This document shows, piece by piece, positions 32,960 through 45,400 of a DNA stretch of 64,000 bases (position 1 is the first letter of the stretch; every line of letters begins with the position of its first letter). Source of the stretch: Azotosporobacter soli (GTDB lineage: Bacteria; Bacillota; Negativicutes; SG130); NCBI RefSeq assembly GCF_030542965.1, contig NZ_JAUAOA010000014.1, positions 1 to 64,000 of the forward strand, given 5' to 3'. Both the position numbers and the translations under genes were made by a program. A model generated the notes under the pieces. That model did not search any database, was not told the DNA's origin, and was given only the letters and a program-made list of their open reading frames with translations.

Positions 32960-33955
32960 TCATGACCCGCCCGCATTCGTTTGGCAGAGAAGTTGGCGCT
33001 GTTTGGCGATCCGCTCGACGAACGGCGTTTTGAAGCGCTCCGGTCCAAGGACGCGGATCACCGGGCCGAAGGAGAGAAGTGTGATTAATAACTCCATTTC
33101 GTCGACTTCATAGTAGTAGATCTTCATCCGGCAAGTTTGCGTTTCTTCGTCGAACTCGGAGGTTCTTTCAAAACTGGACAGCTGGGTGAAAATCCGCTCG
33201 AAACCGTTACGCTCGTTAGAAATTTCGATTTCGACCGGCTCCGGCAGGCGCAAGGCTTGGACGGCGCTAGCAAGGCCGGGAGGTGCGCTCCAATCGGTTT
33301 CCGTTACCGATGTGATGCGCGACAGATTCAATTTATAAAGGCTACGTGCTTTTTGTTGGCGCATGCGCAGTGCGATCAAGCGAAACTTATCGTCGCGCTG
33401 CGAATACTCCAGCTTGTACGGCGCGAAATAAGCGGACAGGCGATTGCCTTTGCCGCTTTCGTAGGTGATTAATACCACCCGCTTTGCTTGGATTGCTTGC
33501 AGCAGTACGGCGAAGCGGCTGCGATAGTCGGGGGAGGCGTAATCGTCGCCGTCACTGGCCCTATCGAGCGCCAAGACTTGCTCTTCGTCATACAGTGGGG
33601 CGACCTCAGACAGAGAGTCGTGCAACTGTTGTTGAAGCGGGGCGGGTAGAAAGAGCGCACAGCGCGGATCGGCGAGAATGGTCTTGAGCCACCGTTGCTG
33701 CAGCGTCGTCAAAGGCTGCGACGGCAGGTTGAGCGATACAGGCGAATAAAGACCGTCAGCTTCTTTCAGCAGGCAGTAACCGGATGCATCGCTGCCCAAG
33801 AGAGGAAGCGTAAGACTAAGCGGAGTTTCGGCAAAACCAAGCTGTGCGACGAGCGCAGCTATATCGTCGGCGCTGAGCGGAGCTAAAGCGGCACGCTTAA
33901 GAACTTCGCTGATAATAAAAAAGTAGCGGCTGTGAATTTCACTAAACAGTTCCAT
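32960..33955 (-). CDS. WYL-domain regulator, second gene of a pair
   Basis: A 331-residue protein. The N-terminal third is a helical or winged region ('LSADDIAALVAQLGFAET'). The WYL-type Sm-like domain follows ('KRVVLITYESGKGNRLSAYFAPYKLEYSQRDDKFRLIAL', 'ARSLYKLNLSRITSVTET') and then the WCX region ('GPVIRVLGPERFKTPFVERIAKQ'). WYL proteins bind ligands, probably nucleic-acid pieces or nucleotides, and often control defence or repair genes. It ends a two-gene operon with another WYL protein and diverges from rtcB. Confidence 0.85.
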   Translation of the reverse strand: MELFSEIHSRYFFIISEVLKRAALAPLSADDIAALVAQLGFAETPLSLTLPLLGSDASGYCLLKEADGLYSPVSLNLPSQPLTTLQQRWLKTILADPRCALFLPAPLQQQLHDSLSEVAPLYDEEQVLALDRASDGDDYASPDYRSRFAVLLQAIQAKRVVLITYESGKGNRLSAYFAPYKLEYSQRDDKFRLIALRMRQQKARSLYKLNLSRITSVTETDWSAPPGLASAVQALRLPEPVEIEISNERNGFERIFTQLSSFERTSEFDEETQTCRMKIYYYEVDEMELLITLLSFGPVIRVLGPERFKTPFVERIAKQRQLLCQTNAGGS

Positions 33956-33967
33956 ACAAGACCTCCG

Positions 33968-35218
33968 TTATTCATCGTACATCGCAGCCATCTGCGCCAT
34001 ATCTGCAATAAACTGGTCGATGACCCGGCGGTTTGAGCCGCGAATCGAGCGAATGCGACCGATGAACGTTCGTAACCACGGCACCATTTCCTGCGTGTCG
34101 CTGACTTCAATGCGATAAGCGAAGATGTTGTCGCCCAACCGTTCCACCGTGCCGTGCTTGCCTTCGCGTTCCAGGCGATGCAGCACGTAGGCTTCGCTTA
34201 CTTCGTCAATCTGCAAGACCATTTCCACCTGTTCACGCCGCGAGCCGTGTCCGACAAATACGCCCCAAGACGTAGCCAAACGTTTATTCAGCGCGTCCAA
34301 CCTTTCGTCGAAGAAGGGGGCGTCGCCGAGCAGTTCCACGTTTTTGATGTAATCGAGCCGGAAGGAAAAGAAGTCGCGGCGGCGCAGGTTGTATGCCAAT
34401 AAATAGCGGCGACCGTGGCGCACGTTACTTGCGATGCGTAGCGGCAAGATCGTCTCACGCAGCGGATTATGCGAACGGTTGCTGCAGTTTTCAAAACGGA
34501 CCAAGCGTCGTGCTTGGATCGCCGCGAGCAAATCCAGCAGTACCGCGTCGTCAAGCGTGTGGAACGTGAAGAGATGGCGAAACGAAAACACATCCTCCGG
34601 CTGCCCTGCGTCGCGCCGGGCAAAATACCCAAGTACGCCAGCCGGCGTTATGGCTTCAAAAAAATGCAGCGGCGTCGCAAGCTTTTCAAGTATTGCAGGC
34701 AACTCTTCCTCGAAAGGGTTATCAGCGAGCGAGTAGAGCAGGGCTTTGCCCTGCTTTTCTTTTTTAAACAAACCCAGTGCGGCATATTCATTCAGTTTAT
34801 TGCGAACCGTCATCGCATCGGGGGCGGCAGTTTCGGAAAAACAGGCCAGGTATTCGTCGCACAGGAACGAAGTTGCTTCTGCTGCCGTAACGCCGGGGTG
34901 TTCACGCAGAATATCGAAGAGGCAAAAATGCAGCAGACAGTCGTTGTTCGTAAAGGATTTCGCTTCCCAAACAGAAAACAACGGATTTGTCGATACGTCC
35001 GCGCCGTTGGTGCGGATAAACAAATTTTTGCCGCGCGCCGTATTTTCCCATTCAATATGACCAGATAAATAGCTTTCGATCCGACGACGCTCATTATCAT
35101 AACTGCGATTGCTTTTATTCGTATAATCATTGCGGCACTTATAGCCATAAACGAGAAAATCCCGCGTATAATCACGAATTTTATCGATATTTTTAACCAA
35201 TTCACTAAACCCGGCCAT
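33968..35218 (-). CDS. WYL-domain regulator, first gene of a pair
   Basis: A 416-residue protein. The N-terminal helical region with a possible winged helix ('RDYTRDFLVYGYKCRNDYTNKSNRSYDNERRRIESYL ... AMTVRNKLNEYAALGLFKKEKQG') is followed by the WYL core ('ARRLVRFENCSNRSHNPLRETILPLRIASNVRHGRRYLLAYNLRR') and WCX part ('MVPWLRTFIGRIRSIRGSN'). The partner WYL gene starts 12 bp downstream. The pair is divergent from rtcB with about 278 bp between, so it most likely controls the rtcB-RNA-slipin-rlaP unit, taking the place that RtcR holds in enteric bacteria (inference). Confidence 0.85.
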   Translation of the reverse strand: MAGFSELVKNIDKIRDYTRDFLVYGYKCRNDYTNKSNRSYDNERRRIESYLSGHIEWENTARGKNLFIRTNGADVSTNPLFSVWEAKSFTNNDCLLHFCLFDILREHPGVTAAEATSFLCDEYLACFSETAAPDAMTVRNKLNEYAALGLFKKEKQGKALLYSLADNPFEEELPAILEKLATPLHFFEAITPAGVLGYFARRDAGQPEDVFSFRHLFTFHTLDDAVLLDLLAAIQARRLVRFENCSNRSHNPLRETILPLRIASNVRHGRRYLLAYNLRRRDFFSFRLDYIKNVELLGDAPFFDERLDALNKRLATSWGVFVGHGSRREQVEMVLQIDEVSEAYVLHRLEREGKHGTVERLGDNIFAYRIEVSDTQEMVPWLRTFIGRIRSIRGSNRRVIDQFIADMAQMAAMYDE

Positions 35219-35252
35219 TGGATCGCCGCCTTTCGGTACCAGTTTTCAATAG

Positions 35253-35360
35253 GGAACGGTAATACGAAGAAGGGAAGAATGGGAAGGGAGGGATATGTTA
35301 TTTATAATAAAAATCTTCCCATCTTTGCGCTTCTTCAAAACTTTGTGTTGAAACCGTTCC
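35253..35360. repeat. Palindromic repeat of the family A core type, upstream of rtcB
   Basis: Outer arms GGAACGGT/ACCGTTCC, then TACGAAGAAGGGAAGAATGG against CTTCCCATCTTTGCGCTTC and a TTTGTG arm. Same AACACGAAG-type core as 38341-38440. It occupies the wyl-rtcB gap. Confidence 0.6.
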
Positions 35361-35496
35361 TGCGTTTTGTTTTTAAAATCTCACAGAAAACAATGATTTC
35401 ATCATATCAAAATAAAGCGCGTGCGGAAAGGTCGCAAACTTTTTTTAATGATGCGCTTTGTGCAAAATAGTAAAGTATAGCCAAGGAGTTGATCAC

Positions 35497-36732
35497 ATGT
35501 ATGTAATGTATAACAAACAAAAAAACAAATATCCGATTAAAGTATGGCTGAGCGACAACGACGTGCTCGAAGAAGAATGCATCGAGCAGGCGACCAACCT
35601 GTCCAACCTGCCGTTTTTGCATAAATGGGTGGCCTTGATGCCCGATACGCATACAGGCAAAGGAATGCCGATCGGCGGCATCATCGCGGCGAACGACGTC
35701 ATCATCCCCAATGCGGTCGGCGTCGATATCGGTTGCGGTATGGCTTACCTGCAAACCAATCTGAACGCGGACAGCCTGAAACATACGATGACCGGCAGCG
35801 GTTCGTTGCTGCAATGCATCATCGGCGACATCCTGCGCAACGTGCCGGTTGGTTTTAAGCATCATAAAGCAAAACAAGCCTCAACTGCGATTGATGTCGC
35901 TATCGCCGACCAAGAACGTTATGCATTTGCCAAGACGCTGTTGCCGGAACTCGATGCCGGTTATTATCAGATCGGGACGCTGGGCGGCGGCAACCATTTT
36001 ATCGAACTGCAAGAAGACGACGAAGGCAAGGTTGGCATTATGCTGCATTCGGGCAGCCGTCATTTGGGCCATCAGATTTGCAAACATTTTCATGCGATTG
36101 CGCGCAAGCACAATCAAGAATGGTTCGCGGCGGTGCCGGACGAATACCAACTGGCTTTCCTGCCAGTCGGCAGCGAAGAAGGGCAATCGTACATCGCCTG
36201 GATGAACCTGGCGCTCGACTTCGCCCACGAAAACCGCAAACATATGCTGCAAGCGGTGGCGGACGTCGTCGAAAAATCCGTCAAACGCCATTTGGGAATA
36301 CAGCCGCAGTACAGCGACGAAATCAACTGCCATCATAACTATGCAGCGCTCGAAAACCATTACGACAAGAACGTTTGGGTGCATCGCAAAGGCGCGATTC
36401 GGGCGCGACTGGGCGAACGCGGCATTATTCCCGGCGCTATGGGGTCTTATAGCTACCTCGTTGAAGGCAAAGGCAATGTCGAAAGCTTCCAGTCCTGTTC
36501 GCACGGTGCGGGGCGATTGATGTCGCGTACCAAAGCCAAAGCCTCCTTCTCGGTGGAAGCGGTGATGAACGATCTGAAAGGCAGCGGCGTCGTCCTCGGC
36601 AAAGCCAAGAAAAGCGACGTGGCCGAAGAATCCCGCTATGCCTACAAGAACATCGACGACGTCATCGCCAACGAACTCGACCTGATCACGCCGGTTAAGC
36701 GGCTGAAGACGATTGGCGTCGTCAAAGGCTAA
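35497..36732 (+). CDS. rtcB: RtcB-family RNA ligase
   Basis: A 411-residue RtcB protein. Visible motifs: 'MPDTHTGKGMPIGGIIA' (Asp and His ligands), 'GVDIGCGMAYL' (metal Cys near residue 79), 'QIGTLGGGNHFIEL', 'GIMLHSGSRHLGHQI' and the guanylylation site 'FQSCSHGAGRLMSR' (His near 337). RtcB joins 2',3'-cyclic phosphate and 5'-OH RNA ends using GTP and Mn2+, repairing tRNAs and rRNA cut by toxins or stress. The length matches the bacterial short form. ATG 35497 has CAAGGAG eight bases upstream. The next element is a tRNA-like RNA, then slipin and RlaP genes, making a full RNA-repair locus. Confidence 0.93.
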   Translation: MYVMYNKQKNKYPIKVWLSDNDVLEEECIEQATNLSNLPFLHKWVALMPDTHTGKGMPIGGIIAANDVIIPNAVGVDIGCGMAYLQTNLNADSLKHTMTGSGSLLQCIIGDILRNVPVGFKHHKAKQASTAIDVAIADQERYAFAKTLLPELDAGYYQIGTLGGGNHFIELQEDDEGKVGIMLHSGSRHLGHQICKHFHAIARKHNQEWFAAVPDEYQLAFLPVGSEEGQSYIAWMNLALDFAHENRKHMLQAVADVVEKSVKRHLGIQPQYSDEINCHHNYAALENHYDKNVWVHRKGAIRARLGERGIIPGAMGSYSYLVEGKGNVESFQSCSHGAGRLMSRTKAKASFSVEAVMNDLKGSGVVLGKAKKSDVAEESRYAYKNIDDVIANELDLITPVKRLKTIGVVKG

Positions 36733-36742
36733 TCTTTTATAA

Positions 36743-36932
36743 AATACGGCTGCCATCCTCTCCTTGGGCCAAGGCGTCATCCGCCTTGCGGTGCCGGGGC
36801 ATCACCCGCGGGCATACCGGGACGATCGGCGGCTCCATATTGAAATACGGAGGTTCGACTCCTCCACCGTAACAACCTTACGGTTAGCTAAGTGGTTAAA
36901 GCATTCAAACACAGAAATCCTTTTGGGATGGG
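36743..36932 (+). ncRNA. Circularly permuted tRNA-like RNA (Y RNA/YrlA-like) in the rtcB operon
   Basis: The strand folds as a tRNA read from the middle. The anticodon-stem 3' arm TTGAA (36840-36844) leads through ATAC to a canonical T-arm (GGAGG-TTCGACT-CCTCC, 36849-36865). Acceptor arm ACCGTAA (36866-36872) then pairs perfectly with TTACGGT (36878-36884) over a 5-nt loop. T and A (as at tRNA positions 8-9) and a D-arm follow (GCT-AAGTGGTTAA-AGC, 36887-36902, with the G18G19 pair). The anticodon-stem 5' arm TTCAA (36904-36908) closes against TTGAA. Outer pairings GCTGCC/GGCGGC (36749-36754/36828-36833) and CCATCC/GGATGG (36753-36758/36926-36931) could form an extra module at the anticodon end; the two share two bases. 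Bacterial Y RNAs (YrlA) have a tRNA-mimic module and occur beside rtcB. Ends are estimates. Confidence 0.72.
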
Positions 36933-36950
36933 GTGCGAATCCCCAAGACG

Positions 36951-37167
36951 AACCTGGAACGGGGAATCTTCTTGTTGGCGACGCTGCGGCACGTCAATGC
37001 CGGAACGATGCCTCGTGCAAGTGGGGATACCGTTTTGCTTTACTGGCTCCCAAGGCGAAGCCCAGACGCGCAGCGGCGTGACTGTACTTTGCCCCCGGAA
37101 CCGGCAAAGCGAGACTCAACCGTTTGCCCGGCTATGCGATCCGTGGAAGATTCCCACGAGACAGGTT
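36951..37167 (+). ncRNA. Second structured RNA or 5' leader before the slipin gene
   Basis: A long-range helix closes 217 nt: AACCTG/CAGGTT (36951-36956 with 37162-37167) stacked on a perfect ten-pair GGGAATCTTC/GAAGATTCCC (36962-36971 with 37146-37155). Inside are CGCTGCG/CGCAGCG, the hairpin CTTTGCC-9 nt-GGCAAAG (about 37087-37109), GGCT/AGCC near 37045-37062 and CGGCA/TGCCG near 36987-37002. A short T-arm-like hairpin GGGG-TGCGAAT-CCCC (36930-36944) lies just before it. This may be a second Y-type RNA, part of one long RNA with the preceding element, or a regulatory leader of slipin. No known family is assigned. Confidence 0.5.
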
Positions 37168-37203
37168 GCTATGAAAAGAAAGAATGAGACGGAGGAATAC
37201 GTC

Positions 37204-38313
37204 ATGAAAATAATTATCAAAGAGCAAGAACGGGGTATCTGGTTCAGAGACGGAAACTACAAGGGCGTGTTGAAACCGGGCCGTCACTTCCTGCTGCCGT
37301 TCTTCGACAATAAAGTGGAAATCCTCGACGTTACTCAAGTTTTTTACCTGCAAAATTACGATCTGGAACTGTTTCTCTCCGATGAAGAACTGTGCCGTGA
37401 ACTGAGCGTCGTCGATGTAGCGGATCGCCAAATTGCCATTCATTTTATCGACGGCAAGTTCAGAGGCGTACTGGGGACAGGAAAATATGCGTTCTGGAAT
37501 GTGCTGAAACAACACCGCTTTGAAATGATCGATACCAGCCAACCGAAAATTGATGCATCAATCGACCGAAGCCTGCTCGCGCGGCCACAGTTTCGCGGCT
37601 ATTCGGTTCTGCATGACGTTGAACCTCATATGAAGGGGGTTCTGTTTTTCGACAACCAGCTGCAGCGCATCCTCGAACCGGGACGTCACTACTTCTGGAC
37701 CGGAGCTGCCAAAGTTGAAGTGGTCAAAGTCGACATGCGGGCGCGGGAAATCGAAATTAACGGACAAGAAATCATGACCGAAGACAAAGTGCCGCTACGC
37801 TTCAACTTCGTCTGCCAATACCGGATCGCCGATGCGGAAAAAAGCGTGTTGGAAGTTAAGGATTATGAACAGCAAATTTATCTGCAACTGCAAATGGTGT
37901 TGCGCGAATATGTCGGCACGCTAAAACTCGATGAACTGTTGAAGTTAAAACAAGAAATTGCAGATTACGTCCTGCATAAAATGAAAGGCAAAGAAGACGA
38001 CTATGGTGCGAAGTTCCTTTTCGCAGGCGTGAAAGACATCATTTTGCCGGGGGAAATCAAGGCCATCCTTAATACCGTGCTGGTCGCGGAAAAGAAAGCG
38101 TTGGCTAACGTCATCACCCGTCGCGAAGAAACCGCATCCACACGCAGCCTGCTGAATACGGCCAAACTGATGGATGAAAACCAAACGCTGTATCGGCTGA
38201 AAGAACTGGAGTTTCTGGAAAAGATCTGCGACAAGGTCGGCAACATCTCGCTCCAGGGCGGCGGGTTGTTGGAGCAGCTGAATGCTCTCGTTGCTGCAAA
38301 GCAATGCGGGTAA
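37204..38313 (+). CDS. Slipin / band-7 (SPFH) family protein of the RNA-repair operon
   Basis: A 369-residue protein. It begins 'MKIIIKEQERGIWFRDGNYKGVLKPGRHFLLPFFDNKVEILDVT' and repeats the same theme at 'HMKGVLFFDNQLQRILEPGRHYFWTGAAKVEVVKVDMRAREIEI'. It then enters the SPFH core ('LRFNFVCQYRIADAEKSVLEVKDYEQQIYLQLQMVLREYVGTLKLDELL') and a helical end. Unlike ordinary stomatins it has no clear N-terminal membrane anchor, which is typical of the slipin form linked to RtcB. It probably forms ring-like scaffolds. GACGGAGGAA lies before ATG 37204. Longer in-frame readings upstream would run through the structured RNA and are rejected. Confidence 0.85.
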   Translation: MKIIIKEQERGIWFRDGNYKGVLKPGRHFLLPFFDNKVEILDVTQVFYLQNYDLELFLSDEELCRELSVVDVADRQIAIHFIDGKFRGVLGTGKYAFWNVLKQHRFEMIDTSQPKIDASIDRSLLARPQFRGYSVLHDVEPHMKGVLFFDNQLQRILEPGRHYFWTGAAKVEVVKVDMRAREIEINGQEIMTEDKVPLRFNFVCQYRIADAEKSVLEVKDYEQQIYLQLQMVLREYVGTLKLDELLKLKQEIADYVLHKMKGKEDDYGAKFLFAGVKDIILPGEIKAILNTVLVAEKKALANVITRREETASTRSLLNTAKLMDENQTLYRLKELEFLEKICDKVGNISLQGGGLLEQLNALVAAKQCG

Positions 38314-38340
38314 GCGACTGATGAAACAGCGAAAGGCTTC

Positions 38341-38440
38341 GACACGAAGAAGGGAAGGTCGGAAGAATGGAAGAGAAAATAGTGATTTATAAAAACAGAA
38401 TCCTTCCGATCTTCTGCATTTCTTCAATTCTTCGTGTTAA
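38341..38440. repeat. Palindromic repeat of the family A core type, between slipin and rlaP
   Basis: ACACGAAGAAGGGAAGG near one end against CTTCAATTCTTCGTGT at the other, with GGTCGGAAGAATGG/CCTTCCGATC inside. Same core as 35253-35360. Confidence 0.65.
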
Positions 38441-38478
38441 ATCGTTCTCCATCAAAAATTTGAAAGGCGGGATTTTGA

Positions 38479-39258
38479 ATGCAACAAATGATACAACAGA
38501 AACTGGATGAAATCGAACAAACGCATCGCGTCAAAATCCTGTTCGCGATCGAATCCGGCAGCCGGGCCTGGGGATTTCCCTCCAAGGACAGCGACTATGA
38601 CGTGCGCTTTGTTTACCTGCAACGCCCCCAGGACTATCTGTCGATCGAAAAGAAGCGCGACGTCATCGAATACCCGGTAACCGACCTGCTCGACGTCAAC
38701 GGCTGGGACTTACGCAAAGCGCTCGGCTTGCTGCGCAAATACAATCCGTCGCTGATGGAATGGCTCGACTCGCCCATCGTCTATCGCGAACAGCCAACGA
38801 TCCGTCAGGAACTGCGCGAAATCCGCAGCGCCTTCTTCGGGCGGCGAACCGCGCTGCACCATTACCTGAGCATGGCGGCAAGCAACTATCGCGACTACCT
38901 CAAGGGCGAAACCGTGAAGGCGAAAAAATACTTCTACGTATTGCGCCCGATTCTCGCCTGTCTCTGGCTGCAACGCGAAACCAGCCAGCCGCCGCTGGAG
39001 TTCCAAACGCTGTTGGCAACGCAGCTTGCCGATCGTCCGGATCTGACTGCGCAGATCGAAGCACTGCTGGAGCGCAAAATCGCTGGTGGGGAACTAGACC
39101 TCGAAGCGCGGCTCGACGACTTGAATCAATTCATCGAAACGTCGCTGCGCGAACTGACGGATTACGCACGCCAAATGCCGTCGGACCCGGTATGCGAGCT
39201 GGAGAGGTTGAATGAGCTTTTTCGCGCGCAACTTAAAACGATTTGGGGATTTCGTTGA
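38479..39258 (+). CDS. RlaP-type nucleotidyltransferase of an RNA repair pathway
   Basis: A 259-residue polymerase-beta-type nucleotidyltransferase. The catalytic core is near the N-terminus: 'FAIESGSRAWGFPSKDSDYDVRFVYLQ' (G-S motif at residues 26-28, acidic pair in DSDYD at 37-41). 'KREQP..RQELREIRSAFF'-like helices and 'GETVKAKKYFYVLRPILACLWLQ' follow, typical of the RlaP family (once DUF/YcgL). Comparative genomics has tied RlaP to RtcB, slipin and other RNA-repair genes, with a proposed role in adding nucleotides to damaged RNA ends. AAAGGCGGG lies before ATG 38479. It is the third protein gene of the locus. Confidence 0.85.
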   Translation: MQQMIQQKLDEIEQTHRVKILFAIESGSRAWGFPSKDSDYDVRFVYLQRPQDYLSIEKKRDVIEYPVTDLLDVNGWDLRKALGLLRKYNPSLMEWLDSPIVYREQPTIRQELREIRSAFFGRRTALHHYLSMAASNYRDYLKGETVKAKKYFYVLRPILACLWLQRETSQPPLEFQTLLATQLADRPDLTAQIEALLERKIAGGELDLEARLDDLNQFIETSLRELTDYARQMPSDPVCELERLNELFRAQLKTIWGFR

Positions 39259-39423
39259 GCAACTCTTGGAAGAATATCAGCTTTCTCGAATTTGATGTTT
39301 TTTCCGTTGAGCGCCAATCTTACTTATGGCGTAGATCAAAAGAAGCGATATGGAGCAGACTGCGATGTTTACGGAAAGTCTTGAGATGTGGCACTCAAGT
39401 ACAATGCAAAAAAAGGAGGACGT

Positions 39424-40224
39424 ATGGGAGAATATCAAGGAAGCATATTGGCAACATTGGAATTGCTAGGCCTTTTTATAATTTTGTGGGGGATATCAGT
39501 CTATTTATGGGAGAAAATTATTTCGCCGCGCGTGTGCAAAATTCGAGACGCGATGATTATGAAGTTTGTGCAAATAATGAGAAAAAATAGATGGGGACGC
39601 TGGAGTGTTGTTGCAACAGAAGGAATATTTTTTGCATTGTTAATAGCAATAATTTGTAAGCGAAATAGCTGGGATTGGTTATTTGTTCTATTAATAATCA
39701 TATTATCGATTGTGACTCCATTGAGTTATAAATTGAGGATGGAAATAGAACGAGGATTTTCCTTGATCAAACAACTTCAAAAAACATTTAATCGTCATGA
39801 GTATATAGGAACGCGAGTGACTTTGCTTTTTGAAGCAATGATGAGCGGCATTGCATGTGTAGGGATTCCGCAGTATCTTACTCTTGTAATATTAAAGTTG
39901 GATTGGCCGGACTTTATGCAAATGACATTGCTAGTATCATATGCGGTTTATTCGAATCTATGGATCTATATGAAAATGCCGTTAGTCTTTCAAGATAAAA
40001 AAAACGTGGAGAATGCGCGCAAATTTTTGACGTATATAATTGTACTGCTGTTTGTGCTTCAACAATTTGAAAATAAGTTTTATGCGTTGAAAGAGGGGGG
40101 GCCACCGGATGTTCAAGGGGTTGTATATGTTATTGTAGGCGTGGTGTTTTTCGCCTTTGAGCGTGTCATTAAAACGATGGCAGATGATTATGCGGAATAT
40201 CAAAAACACTGCCAAAAAGCCTAG
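39424..40224 (+). CDS. Hypothetical membrane protein
   Basis: A 266-residue protein with about seven predicted spans: 'ATLELLGLFIILWGISVYLW', 'GRWSVVATEGIFFALLIAIIC', 'WDWLFVLLIIILSIVTPLSY', and others to 'VVYVIVGVVFFAFERVI'. AAAAAGGAGGACGT lies before ATG 39424. It is strongly AT-rich against the GC-richer rlaP before it, so it was probably acquired. No motif recognised. The next ORF, also a small membrane protein, starts 92 bp later; the two could form a membrane effector unit, but that is only suggested by position. Confidence 0.7.
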   Translation: MGEYQGSILATLELLGLFIILWGISVYLWEKIISPRVCKIRDAMIMKFVQIMRKNRWGRWSVVATEGIFFALLIAIICKRNSWDWLFVLLIIILSIVTPLSYKLRMEIERGFSLIKQLQKTFNRHEYIGTRVTLLFEAMMSGIACVGIPQYLTLVILKLDWPDFMQMTLLVSYAVYSNLWIYMKMPLVFQDKKNVENARKFLTYIIVLLFVLQQFENKFYALKEGGPPDVQGVVYVIVGVVFFAFERVIKTMADDYAEYQKHCQKA

Positions 40225-40316
40225 ACTGAAGAGTGTAAAAAAACAGCATAGCACTATTTTTAGTGGATTTTAAAAATCATAATGAAAATCGTGCGAAAAA
40301 TAAGGAGGAAATGAAT

Positions 40317-40703
40317 ATGGACAATGAAATAGCAGTAGGAATGAAATTTGTAATGCAAATTATCGGTGTTGTGGGGAGTTGGATGCTTTTGCCGAAAGCA
40401 GCATTTCGTAAAACGGATGATATCGTTTTGCAGCACTATAAAATATATGGTTCGCGAACTGAATGGAAATCGATTATAGAAGTACATCAGCAAAAAGTGT
40501 TGGCTGCCGCGTTGATGATTATATATTTTGTAATGTCGAGTGGTTTTGCGTTAATGGAAATACCGGATCAGGCTGCTAGGGCTTGTTGGAGTGGCAATGC
40601 TATATTGGTAATAGGAATTATGTTTGTATTTAAGCATTTTGTGATAAAGCGTCGATTAAAAAACGTGAATAAGGTGTTGGAAAAGACAAAACAAAGCGTG
40701 TGA
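40317..40703 (+). CDS. Hypothetical small membrane protein
   Basis: A 128-residue protein with three likely spans: 'KFVMQIIGVVGSWMLLP', 'KVLAAALMIIYFVMSSGFALM' and 'GNAILVIGIMFVFKHFVI', ending in a basic tail. AAGGAGG lies eight bases before ATG 40317; the in-frame ATG 40311 is too close to it. AT-rich. Unknown family. It follows another orphan membrane protein and precedes a small basic protein in the same direction. Confidence 0.7.
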   Translation: MDNEIAVGMKFVMQIIGVVGSWMLLPKAAFRKTDDIVLQHYKIYGSRTEWKSIIEVHQQKVLAAALMIIYFVMSSGFALMEIPDQAARACWSGNAILVIGIMFVFKHFVIKRRLKNVNKVLEKTKQSV

Positions 40704-40776
40704 AAATGATCAAGGTGGAAATCTTGCTGCTCAAAAACCGGGCAGTTAGAAAATATAAAAATGAGGAGGTGAAAGC

Positions 40777-41019
40777 ATGAATTCAAAAAAGACAAGCAAT
40801 CGTGTCGGGAGCCTTGCTGGACAAGTGTTGCAAAATCAACATTCCAGCGCAATTCAACGACAACTTGCTGGAAGCGCGTTGGCGCAGCGGCAAGGAAGCA
40901 AACAGACTGGCGGGGGCATGGAAGATGTTGCGTCAAAGGTGTTGAACAGTCCGAAATACAATGACACCACAAAAGAATTAGCGGGTAGCGTTCTTGCGCA
41001 ATCAAATCGGAAGCGGTAA
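40777..41019 (+). CDS. Small basic repeat-like protein
   Basis: An 80-residue protein with two related halves: 'NRVGSLAGQVLQNQHSSAIQRQLAGSALAQR' and 'EDVASKVLNSPKYNDTTKELAGSVLAQSNRKR'. Each half has the pattern '(A/G)S..(A).VL......S......LAGS.LAQ', so it looks like an internal duplication. Proteins of this short, basic type occur widely as orphans. GAGGAGGTGAAAGC lies before ATG 40777. A terminator overlaps the stop. Function unknown. Confidence 0.75.
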   Translation: MNSKKTSNRVGSLAGQVLQNQHSSAIQRQLAGSALAQRQGSKQTGGGMEDVASKVLNSPKYNDTTKELAGSVLAQSNRKR

Positions 41020-41051
41020 ATAAAAGCAGGCCTTTGGGTCTGCTTTTATTT
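41019..41051 (+). terminator. Rho-independent terminator
   Basis: AATAAAAGCAG pairs with CTGCTTTTATT, T-rich behind. Confidence 0.8.
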
Positions 41052-41071
41052 ACTCAAATATCCATAATTGG

Positions 41072-41195
41072 AGATGTCGCAATGTTTTTTTGATGATGAT
41101 GAACGAACAAAATAGTAAAGTAAAGGCAAGGAGATGGTTACATGTATGTGATATATGACAAGGCAAAAATGCCGCTTCGATTAAGGGGCGGATAG
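41072..41195 (+). pseudogene. Remnant of a second rtcB: 5' region and first codons
   Basis: The stretch aligns with the region upstream of rtcB and its first codons (about 35430-35530): GTCGCAA, a T-run, ATGATG, then CAAAATAGTAAAGTA, CAAGGAG and CATGTATGT. The reading frame from ATG 41142 gives MYVIYDKAKMPLRLRGG and stops, against MYVMYNKQKNKYPIKVW in rtcB. The rest of the gene is absent. The divergence in codons suggests an old paralogue rather than a fresh copy. The shared untranslated part marks bases likely to matter for rtcB expression. Confidence 0.65.
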
Positions 41196-41247
41196 GAACG
41201 GAAAGCGTAAAGTCTTGAATGGAAAATTACAATTTTGGAGGATGGTT

Positions 41248-42159
41248 ATGATTATCAGAAGAAGAAAGATAAGAAAAGCGGAGAAGTATTTAAATGAATT
41301 TGCAGAAGGTTGTGAAATTACGGTAGCATTGACGGATATTGAAAATCATCGTGCTAGATTAATAGCATGTGGATTTGATGCTCAAATTCAAGTAGGGGAT
41401 CGTGTTTGTCCGGCAGCTGTTTTTGGTCCAGTGACAAAATTCAATTCAGAGGGGAGGGATGTAGTTCGAAGAGATTTACCAATGGAAACGGCGTATCGAT
41501 TGCAGGATTGGAGTATCACTGATTGGCATGGACAGGAACATAGTGGTACGGCTTATGTTCCATATCAGCGATATCCAAGAGAGCGAATTGCTCCTTTAGG
41601 ATATGAACTGACCGTAATGGAAAATACGATGCACAATAAACTGATTACATCCGAGTTTATCGCTGTTCGGCCGGAGAATATGGATGCCATTAAAATTATG
41701 ATTAACCTGTTTCTTGAACTCTTCGGCGAGTGCGAAATACTTACGCATAACCTTGTTCCAAATATAAGAGGTAATATTCGAAGGCTTCAATGGGAAATGA
41801 TACCGCCGGGAGATTACCCATGGGAACGGATAAGAGGTAGAATTAATGCAGAAACAGAGCATGTTCGAAGAAATAGAAGAGCAATGCTGAGCCGATTTGA
41901 AACGATAAATAATTATGGACCGAATTGCATTGCAATAGGCCGCGCCGGCTTTAAAGGGTATGTTGCGTTTTGTTTTAGTGATAAAAACATTAATATTTTG
42001 GAAAGCTCATACCCTGATAACGCTACATATATATTTGATGATAGTTGGGAGCAATTAACTCAGTTAACAAAAAAGCAAATCATTACAGAAAATCTTGCTC
42101 GTGCTAGAGTGGTCCATAATAGAGAGTGGGAACAACAGATTATGCGACTATTGCAGTAG
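41248..42159 (+). CDS. Hypothetical protein
   Basis: A 303-residue soluble protein. The N-terminus is basic ('IIRRRKIRKAEKYLNEFAEGCEITVALTDIENHRARL'). A beta-rich stretch follows ('GDRVCPAAVFGPVTKFNSEGRDVVRRDLPMETAYRLQDWSITDWHGQEHSGTAYVPYQRYPRERI'), then a mixed C-terminal part ('YGPNCIAIGRAGFKGYVAFCFSDKNINILESSYPDNATYIFDDSWEQL'). The tail 'GYVAF.F......LES..PDNATYIF..' recurs in orphan proteins of restriction and defence islands, but I cannot name a domain. TTGGAGGA lies six bases before ATG 41248. It follows the rtcB remnant directly. Confidence 0.65.
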   Translation: MIIRRRKIRKAEKYLNEFAEGCEITVALTDIENHRARLIACGFDAQIQVGDRVCPAAVFGPVTKFNSEGRDVVRRDLPMETAYRLQDWSITDWHGQEHSGTAYVPYQRYPRERIAPLGYELTVMENTMHNKLITSEFIAVRPENMDAIKIMINLFLELFGECEILTHNLVPNIRGNIRRLQWEMIPPGDYPWERIRGRINAETEHVRRNRRAMLSRFETINNYGPNCIAIGRAGFKGYVAFCFSDKNINILESSYPDNATYIFDDSWEQLTQLTKKQIITENLARARVVHNREWEQQIMRLLQ

Positions 42160-42185
42160 TATACGCTGTTGATCATGTGAGATTT

Positions 42186-42236
42186 AAAAAGCAATGCTTC
42201 AGTAAATCCTGCCATTTACTGAAGCATTGCTTTTTG
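42186..42236 (+). terminator. Very strong Rho-independent terminator
   Basis: A 21-bp stem: AAAAAGCAATGCTTCAGTAA and its complement TTACTGAAGCATTGCTTTTT around CCTGCC. It separates the orphan genes from the restriction operon. Confidence 0.9.
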
Positions 42237-42432
42237 AAAAATAAATATATAGAAGTAAATTTTGACAGGCATAAATCGTCATTTAAAAGACAAACCGAAT
42301 AAATTCACAAATGGGAAGGTAATTTATATATTGAACGCCAATATAATATTACCATAATGCTTACAAGCATAAATGATTTGCAGCGATCAAGTGATAACGG
42401 AATTGGGCATAAATTACGCAGGAGGTCTCGGC

Positions 42433-45400
42433 ATGAGTAAGGGCAACTTTGAGTTTTTAAAAGAGCAATGGCCAATACTAGCGCAGCTAGGGGCTTTAGC
42501 TGAAAAAAATATAAAAGAAGACTCTAACACCACACTGATTAAGTTGGGGATGTTTGCCGAGACTTTGGTCAAGTATATGTTTGCGTATGACAATTTAGAA
42601 GAACCATCTGATGGGCGGTTAGCCAGTAGGATTATGATATTAAAACGAAATGATCTTATAACGGGAGATATCTGCGACGTATTCTATGCGCTGCGTACGA
42701 AGCGTAATGTAGCGGCTCATGAAGTGTACACATCAGAGACGGATGCACGGCGGTTAACAAAATTGGCATATAAACTAGCGGTTTGGTTTATGCAGACATA
42801 TGGGGATTGGAAATTCGAGCCGCAAGCCTATGTCGAACCTACATTGCAATCTGCTGCGGACAAAATTGCGCAACTGGAAAATGAAAAAAATGAACTGACG
42901 AAAGCCTATGAAGATGAAAATAAAAAACTGAAAGAAACATTGGACTTATTGAAGGTGCAGGCGACTGCGGAAACTAGCAAACAGCGAAAGGAAAAATCAA
43001 AATACGCGGCAAAGTTTTTTCATCTTGACGAAACCGAGACGCGGAAAATCATCGACGAAAAATTGCGCGTAGCTGGTTGGGAAGTCGATACGGATACGTT
43101 GCGTTACTCGAACGGCACTCGCCCGGTGAAAAATAAAAACATGGCGATTGCCGAGTGGCCGACTGATTCGCGTAAGGGAAATCATGGCCGCGCCGACTAT
43201 GCGCTGTTCGTCGGGTTGAAGCTGGTCGGGATTGTCGAAGCGAAGCGTGCCATCAGGGATGTCGCGGCTGACCTGGGACAGAGCAAGGATTATGCGCGTT
43301 TTATCAAAAAAGAACACCTGCAATATGTCTGCGGAAAATGGGACGATGGCTATGTACCTTTCTTGTTTTCCACTAATGGTCGCGACTATTTAAAACAGCT
43401 TGAGACCAAATCGGGCATATGGTTTCTTGATGCCAGGCAGGTGACGAATCATGCCAAAGCGCTGCAAGGCTGGTACACGCCGGAAGGGCTAGCGAAGCTG
43501 CTCGAGTTTGATGAGCAGGAAGCCAATGCACGGTTAAAACGGGAAGACACCGACTACTTAAGCAGCAAGACCGGTCTCGCGCTGCGCGAATACCAGATCA
43601 AGGCGATCGAAGCGATCGAAGCGGCGATCGAAGACGGCCGGCGCAGCGTCTTAATCGCGATGGCGACCGGCACCGGCAAGACGCGGACCATCGTCGGCAT
43701 CCTGTACCGCTTGCTGAAAGCCAAACGCTTCAAACGCATCCTGTTCCTCGTCGATCGCAAAGCCTTGGGCAACCAAGCAGAAGACACGTTTAAGGAAGTC
43801 GTCATCGAGGGTTTGGAAAAGTTTTATGACATTTATGACATCAAAGGAATTGAAGATATCAAGCCGGAACCGGAAACGAAGATTCATATTTCCACCGTGC
43901 AGGGGATGGTGCGTCGGGTGCTGTGCAGCGAGGAACTGGCCGACGCTCCGAAGGTCGACGATTATGACTGCATCGTGATCGACGAGGCGCATCGCGGCTA
44001 TATCTTGGACAAGGAAATGGGCGAAGTCGAGTTGGAAGTCCGCGACCAGAGCGACTATGTCAGCAAATACACCCAGGTCATCGAATATTTTGACGCGCTG
44101 AAAATTGCGCTGACTGCGACGCCGGCGCTACATACCAAAGCGCTGTTCGGCGAGCCGGTCTATAAATACAGCTATCGCGAAGCGGTAATCGACGGCTATC
44201 TGGTGGACCATGAACCGCCGCACCAACTGACGACGCAGTTGAAGGACGACGGCATCAAATTTGCCAAGGGCGAATCGGTGGATACCTATGACATGGCCAG
44301 CGGCACGGTCGTTACGATTGACGACCTGCCGGACGAACTGAACTTTGACATTGAAAGCTTCAATAAACGGGTGATCAACGAAAACTTCAACCGCGTCGTG
44401 CTGGCGGAAATCGCGCAAGACATCGACCCGGAAGGCGACGCCAAGACGCTGATTTTTGCTGCCACTGATGCCCATGCCGACATGATCGTCGCGCTGTTGA
44501 AGGAAATTTACGGTGATATGGGCCTTGATGTCTGCGATGACGCGATCCAAAAGATCACCGGTTCGCTGAAAGATCCGCTGCTGGCGATCAAACAGTTTAA
44601 AAACGAGCAATACCCGAATATTGCGGTCACGGTCGATCTGCTGTCCACCGGGATCGACGTGCCGAAAATTTGCAACCTGGTCTTCTTGCGCCGCGTCAAA
44701 TCGCGGATTCTGTATGAGCAAATGCTCGGCCGGGCGACGCGTCTGTGCGGCGAGATTGGCAAGACGCATTTTACGATTTATGATGCGGTCGGATTGTACG
44801 AAGTGCTCGAAGACGCCAGCAACATGAAGCCGGTGGTGAAAAACGTCAGCGTCGACTTTGCCACGCTGGTCGATGAGCTGACTAGCTATTCGACGCCGGA
44901 ACAAAAACAGGCGGCGCTTGAGCAAATTATTGCCAAGCTGCAACGCAAGAAGCGCCAGCTTGACGACGCACAGCTGGCGCAGTTCCGCCATCTGGCGGGC
45001 GGCCAGACGCCGGACGAATTAATCCAGCATATTAAGCTCGGCAGCCTGGACAGTGTGATCCGCGAGCTGGGCGAACGGGTGCAGCTGATCGACTTCCTCG
45101 ACCGCAAAGCCGGCGGCAGTAACGGCATCGTCATATCGACCCATGCGGATGTATTGACCGGCCATGGCCGCGGCTACGGTGTCAGGGAAACGCGCCCGGA
45201 AGACTATATCGAGAGCTTCAGCCGCTATATCAAAGAAAACCTGAATAAGATTCCGGCGCTGGAAATCGTCTGCACGCGGCCGAAGGAACTGACGCGCCAG
45301 GCGCTGAAAGAACTGAAGATTGAACTGGACCTGCAGGGCTATAATGAAATGAACCTCAACACCGCCTGGCGCAGCTTGAAAAATGAAGACATCGCCGCCG

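Follow-up and report, generated by a model that had tools for sequence, protein, structure and literature searches.

The 64,000-nucleotide stretch of Azotosporobacter soli DNA analysed here (contig NZ_JAUAOA010000014.1; the window) contains an intact gene for the RNA ligase RtcB (35497–36732, + strand, 411 aa; PF01139, E 1.3e-114), and at 41072–41195 a short segment that resembles the start of this gene and then breaks off. What is this second start, and why would the sequence in front of it have been kept? The original prediction held that the segment duplicates the upstream block of rtcB together with its first codons, and the comparison with shuffled controls bears this out. Using blastn within the window, 41070–41169 aligned with 35425–35523 (77 of 100 positions identical, one gap, E ~1e-15), and the local alignment score of the remnant and resident leaders was 106, whereas none of 1000 dinucleotide shuffles scored above 49 and no unrelated part of the window above 39, ruling out a chance similarity. 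The 3.78-Mb genome holds these two copies of the aligned segment and no third.

GTCGCAA, the T-run, ATGATG, CAAAATAGTAAAGTA, CAAGGAG and CATGTATGT are all present in the remnant. Its truncated frame (41142–41195, + strand) opens with ATG at 41142, reads MYVIYDKAKMPLRLRGG* and closes with TAG at 41193–41195; these 17 residues align with MYVMYNKQKNKYPIKVWLS of the resident rtcB (start 35497) and, conservative changes included, with the N-termini of other RtcB proteins. An AAGGAG at 41128–41133 (+ strand), recognized by its sequence and by alignment with the leaders of relatives, resembles a Shine-Dalgarno element of the former rtcB. Beyond the stop codon, weak DNA likeness to the rtcB of another genome, G303, continues and fades at about 41205. 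Because the frame aligns with RtcB N-termini and this likeness reaches past it, the remnant was once a real, since diverged, rtcB start; with rtcB homology and a frame broken after 17 residues it is an rtcB pseudogene, and besides it and the resident gene no other rtcB pieces were found in the window.

To place the upstream sequence, we compared rtcB leaders across relatives taken from genome collections. This alignment, which the original prediction had proposed, recovered a common block before rtcB: the leaders of close relatives all carry TCGCAA-NN-TTTTT-NNN-ATGAT, with Vallitalea as one final-position variant. The distance from block to start codon varies from ~45 to >150 nt, and outside the block the leaders differ between Negativicutes and Clostridia. 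In the genome studied here, the exact block (TCGCAANNTTTTTNNNATGAT) occurs twice, at 35432–35452 in the resident rtcB promoter (+ strand, TCGCAAACTTTTTTTAATGAT) and at 41077–41097 in the remnant (+ strand, TCGCAATGTTTTTTTGATGAT), where we propose that it comprises a WYL operator and a -35-like ATGATn. Scanning 380 genomes of the window's class returned eight exact matches in six genomes (reversed control, 0), of which six precede rtcB, one precedes rlaP (in G289) and one is the remnant; all six genomes encode a close RtcB. A second scan, of 397 genomes of one Clostridia family, gave 24 matches in 22 genomes (reversed control, 3), followed by a close-kind rtcB at 16 sites, a divergent RtcB gene and then rlaP at one, slipin at two, a DUF2828 gene at four and none of these at one, so that an RNA-repair-type gene stands behind 23 of the 24, within a set of motif-bearing genomes that is partly clustered by phylogeny. 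One-mismatch blocks were found before slipin in Vallitalea and, in G385, ahead of both a DUF2828 gene and what appear to be short RNAs, and the distant-kind RtcB genes of class genomes without the WYL family described below have no block. Since the block is common to unrelated genes of the same pathway, its conservation is more than that of an inherited rtcB leader. Across the 32 exact sites of both scans, the next complete gene is not of an RNA-repair type only at one apparent chance match and at the remnant, where no intact RNA-repair-type gene lies directly behind the block and the truncated rtcB start is followed by a gene for a 303-aa protein. Nine exact matches in viral contigs were set aside as apparently unrelated on inspection. 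We did not find the block described in the literature searched, the coverage of which is incomplete, and its novelty is therefore provisional.

The architecture around the block is that of a promoter. In an alignment of 38 promoters (the remnant and 37 others), a TATAAT-like hexamer placed 17 nt after ATGATn scores a mean of 4.46 of 6 matches, compared with 2.02 at other offsets (z 4.8), and A at position 2 together with T at position 6 is found at this spacing in 35 of 38 promoters, against a mean of 4.0 of 38 at other offsets. With the -10 hexamer 17 nt further on, ATGATn occupies the position of a -35 hexamer, albeit a weak one, and the fixed TCGCAA and T-run lie immediately upstream of it; relative to the predicted -10, TCGCAA-NN-TTTTT-NNN spans about -51 to -36 and the whole block about -51 to -31. 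Such a layout would suit a promoter that needs an activator beside sigma. Both copies in the window have the -10 hexamer TAAAGT at the 17-nt spacing (+ strand; resident, 35471–35476; remnant, 41116–41121). The remnant has thus lost none of the 16 fixed block positions and keeps both the spacing and the -10, and 41077–41121 is best read, from its sequence, as an intact second copy of the rtcB promoter. Two other architectures were ruled out: a sigma-54 promoter, as the -24/-12 element TGGCAC-N5-TTGC has no match with up to two mismatches in 34433–40199 or 40215–42832, and a palindromic operator, as neither the remnant nor the resident leader contains an inverted repeat of at least 8 nt.

The candidate activators are encoded next to the resident gene. 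WYL regulator 1 (33968–35218, − strand, 416 aa; PF13280) is divergent from rtcB and is proposed to act on both block copies; its tandem partner, WYL regulator 2 (32960–33955, − strand, 331 aa; PF13280), adjoins it in nearly all loci read, so that two adjacent WYL genes, as in PafBC-type systems, are found in the window and in nearly all related loci. A homologue of the 416-aa regulator is encoded in 6/6 block-positive genomes of the class versus 9/374 others, and in three of those nine a block with one mismatch, followed by a -10 at the 17-nt spacing, lies beside the WYL gene. Among the block-bearing Clostridia genomes tested, 14 of 15 have the homologue; the block of the exception, G543, is without a -10 and without an RNA-repair gene and is apparently a chance match. 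Against WYL chains in the PDB, the regulators gave a marginal match (E ~0.01) confined to the WYL domain. The tandem pair most likely switches the promoters of the regulon on; we infer WYL binding to the block, the activating sign, a ligand and a heterodimer. The original suggestion of a regulatory element (promoter or WYL operator) thus gains good support from the comparison, the promoter-like block standing almost only before RNA-repair genes in genomes with the WYL pair; binding of the WYL proteins to it is the inferred part.

Downstream of the resident rtcB follow genes for a slipin (SPFH/Band 7; 37204–38313, + strand; PF01145, E 1.1e-32) and the nucleotidyltransferase RlaP (38479–39258, + strand; PF10127, E 4e-94). 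The rtcB-slipin gap (36733–37203) is conserved noncoding sequence common to G289, G074 and G080 and contains two tRNA-like pieces, one T-arm-like (GGAGGTTCGACTCCTCC) and one D-arm-like (TTAGCTAAGTGGTTAAAGC) with a second T-arm. ARAGORN and Rfam searches returned no report for this gap and nothing credible on the region; it is possibly a Y-RNA-like partner RNA. At six clostridial loci (L079, L081, L082, L093, L098 and L100), short RNAs or leaders stand behind the block and are closed by AAGGCAC-A-ACAGC ... GTGCCTTGTA, and tRNA-like modules occur in some clostridial post-block RNAs (L100, L102). DUF2828 proteins (with DUF7788) appear to be regulon members at L098, L081 and L102, which suggests a role in RNA repair, perhaps a Ro-like one; a sequence search of solved structures gave no kinship between DUF2828 and Ro60. 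At another locus (L065, 7632–8865, in G080), two overlapping frames make up a split rtcB, the promoter block of which is intact.

How old the second copy is can be gauged from the leaders. The remnant leader is 75% identical to the resident rtcB leader, which itself is 87, 86, 81 and 76% identical to the orthologous leaders of four other genomes of the class. As 75% falls below the 81–87% of three of these four families, the remnant is not a recent local duplicate, a history that these identities disfavour, and is instead either an old paralogue or of foreign origin. The 22 promoter positions are unchanged, and all 23 differing columns of the 100-column alignment lie outside them (hypergeometric P 0.0014), where ~29% of the aligned positions have changed. 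This value shows constraint since the two copies parted, a span within which continued constraint after the loss of rtcB is not separable; most of the divergence of the remnant may predate that loss, and the intact promoter would then reflect past rather than present selection. A second case comes from G289, where the block before rlaP, the second block of that genome, has a leader matching the rtcB leader of G303 (72% over 148 nt) and the gene behind it matches the G303 rlaP (82%), with rtcB absent from between, apparently an independent parallel of a promoter that outlived its rtcB. A 33-residue mini-frame in G289 was considered as a match to the 303-aa protein (E 0.017, ten-protein set) and rejected, because its flanks show a deleted rtcB instead.

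Going downstream from the remnant promoter, the first gene that is complete is the 303-aa gene (41248–42159, + strand), of unknown function. It is framed by two terminator-like hairpins, one just upstream of the remnant (41016–41053; an inverted repeat with an RNA fold of -25.9 kcal/mol, z -9.5) and one between the gene and hsdR (42183–42238; -32.9 kcal/mol, z -10.9); neither is listed by a terminator scan that needs a T run after the stem. Between the hairpins the 303-aa gene is the sole complete gene, and a promoter scan of 41053–41248 found no consensus sigma-70 promoter on the + strand. For hsdR, which begins past the second hairpin, a separate promoter-like site lies at 42304. Judged from this arrangement, the remnant promoter would control the 303-aa gene. 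The protein has no match in Pfam, NCBIfam, PADLOC or PHROGs, and AlphaFold2 run without an alignment gave a pLDDT of 35. Its relatives are encoded on plasmids of several phyla (the best being 33–38% identical) and in one phage-collection record. In Pelosinus propionicus (L070, 7531–9219), a relative lies in an ICE-like region directly upstream of a gene for a SLATT_5 2TM effector, with integrase-type and conjugation-type genes around, a possible two-gene defence unit; a defence role of the family is a guess from this gene company. No relative of the 303-aa gene is known to have the block; in the Pelosinus genome it stands only at rtcB.

Taking these observations together, we consider it probable that 41077–41121 is a spare, sequence-intact promoter of a WYL-controlled RNA-repair regulon, whose own rtcB was lost and which now heads the 303-aa unit with some present activity. 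This reading builds on the observed copy, motif, spacing, genomic specificity, WYL linkage, decayed frame and flanking hairpins. In Negativicutes and Clostridia the promoter marks an RNA-repair regulon of rtcB, slipin, rlaP and DUF2828 genes and, probably, small RNAs, and the WYL pair would act on its asymmetric site in a PafBC-like manner, with the housekeeping sigma factor and with a nucleic-acid ligand released by damage as the activating signal. On this reading, the rtcB behind the spare promoter was a second, older or foreign one that decayed to its first codons, and the promoter stayed to head a unit of one gene, the 303-aa gene at 41248, with a terminator-like hairpin on either side.

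The same facts can be read otherwise. The remnant could be inert, a leftover of the second rtcB whose promoter has not decayed and yet drives nothing that matters, which we hold to be possible if doubtful: only ~130 nt are left, the 75% identity to the resident leader against 81–87% for three of four families is that expected of an old or relaxed copy, and the gene behind the promoter belongs to a mobile, sporadic family. However, no change has touched the 16 fixed positions, the 17-nt spacing or the -10, against ~29% changed among the other aligned positions. The promoter also follows a terminator-like hairpin directly, and the complete gene that comes next has no other evident promoter. A reading in which translation of the 17-residue frame controls the downstream gene, as a leader peptide would, could draw on the preserved start codon and Shine-Dalgarno element; since the frame aligns with the RtcB N-terminus it needs no other origin, and the leader has no significant structure (z -1.0), so that we give this very little credence. 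The block might also be a repressor operator rather than an activator site, an idea compatible with the promoter reading and suggested by BrxR, a WYL repressor that is encoded beside defence genes (PMC9122601); it appears unlikely, because BrxR binds inverted repeats (PMC9122601), which at a length of at least 8 nt are missing from both leaders, because a weak -35-like hexamer, placed as for an activator, closes the block, and because the regulators form a tandem pair, like PafB/PafC.

The original prediction had also offered past recombination that inserted the orphan genes at 39.4–41.0 kb, for which we find no evidence: the ~130 nt of similarity start at the promoter block, with none upstream. 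A scar of homologous recombination between two rtcB copies, which would have placed or removed these genes, could account for the two partial copies that flank the orphan genes; one orphan gene, at 40777, matches a phage family. Against it, the homology amounts to ~100 nt at 77% and has the promoter block as its exact start, and the resident operon lacks nothing (rtcB, RNA, slipin, rlaP). In none of the relatives read do these genes lie with an intact rtcB on each side, and three of the four other-family leaders come closer to the resident leader than the remnant does; we regard such a scar as quite improbable. In the 80-aa product of the orphan at 40777–41019, two stretches match PHROG 5079, which is a phage family without known function, and the orphan genes may be of mobile origin.

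Several known systems resemble the spare promoter and its regulon in part. PafBC is the heterodimeric WYL activator of the mycobacterial DNA-damage response and, with its orthologues, the only heterodimeric WYL protein reported; its mode of action is sigma adaptation at a promoter motif of its own, located at -26, and ssDNA activates it during DNA damage (PMC11804915). Common to both are the tandem WYL genes, an asymmetric motif with a -10 and no good -35, and a regulon of nucleic-acid repair, whereas the motif lies at -26 there and at about -51 to -31 here, and ssDNA and DNA damage there contrast with RNA-repair genes here. As the motif is not at -26, we keep PafBC-like action as a guess and claim no identity with PafBC. 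The RtcR-controlled rtcBA and rsr-yrlBA-rtcBA operons likewise have a regulated RtcB, with Ro-like proteins and tRNA-like Y RNAs (PMC7790460), but the regulator there, RtcR, is a CARF-domain activator of the sigma-54 type, while the neighbours here are WYL regulators and neither leader has a -24/-12 site. BrxR and CapW (PMC9122601, PMC9122588) share the WYL domain and the control of conflict-type genes; in contrast to BrxR, which represses via inverted repeats, the site here is non-palindromic and tied to RNA repair. The described RtcB-slipin-RlaP neighbourhoods (RlaP: PMC7824862) have the same gene content as the resident operon; the shared promoter block and its copies set the latter apart, as far as the literature searched goes.

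Tentatively, we suggest that a gene of a candidate defence family, carried by a mobile element, could have taken over an RNA-damage promoter under a PafBC-like WYL pair, a proposal that we hold to be somewhat less likely than not. If true, RNA damage, e.g., by a tRNA-cutting phage or toxin, would induce RNA repair and the 303-aa gene together. The block and the adjoining candidate WYL pair make the switching-on of RtcB outside RtcR-bearing bacteria directly testable, and should the pair be heterodimeric, PafBC would be joined by a second such case. The 21-nt block pinpoints RNA-repair promoters across classes of Firmicutes with almost no false matches, and is thereby a handle for finding more RNA-repair genes and small RNAs. 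Promoters of this kind can outlive their gene and attach to other genes, as seen twice, apparently independently, in the remnant and before the rlaP of G289. The remnant alone is a modest finding; the regulon promoter that it exposed is the part of interest.
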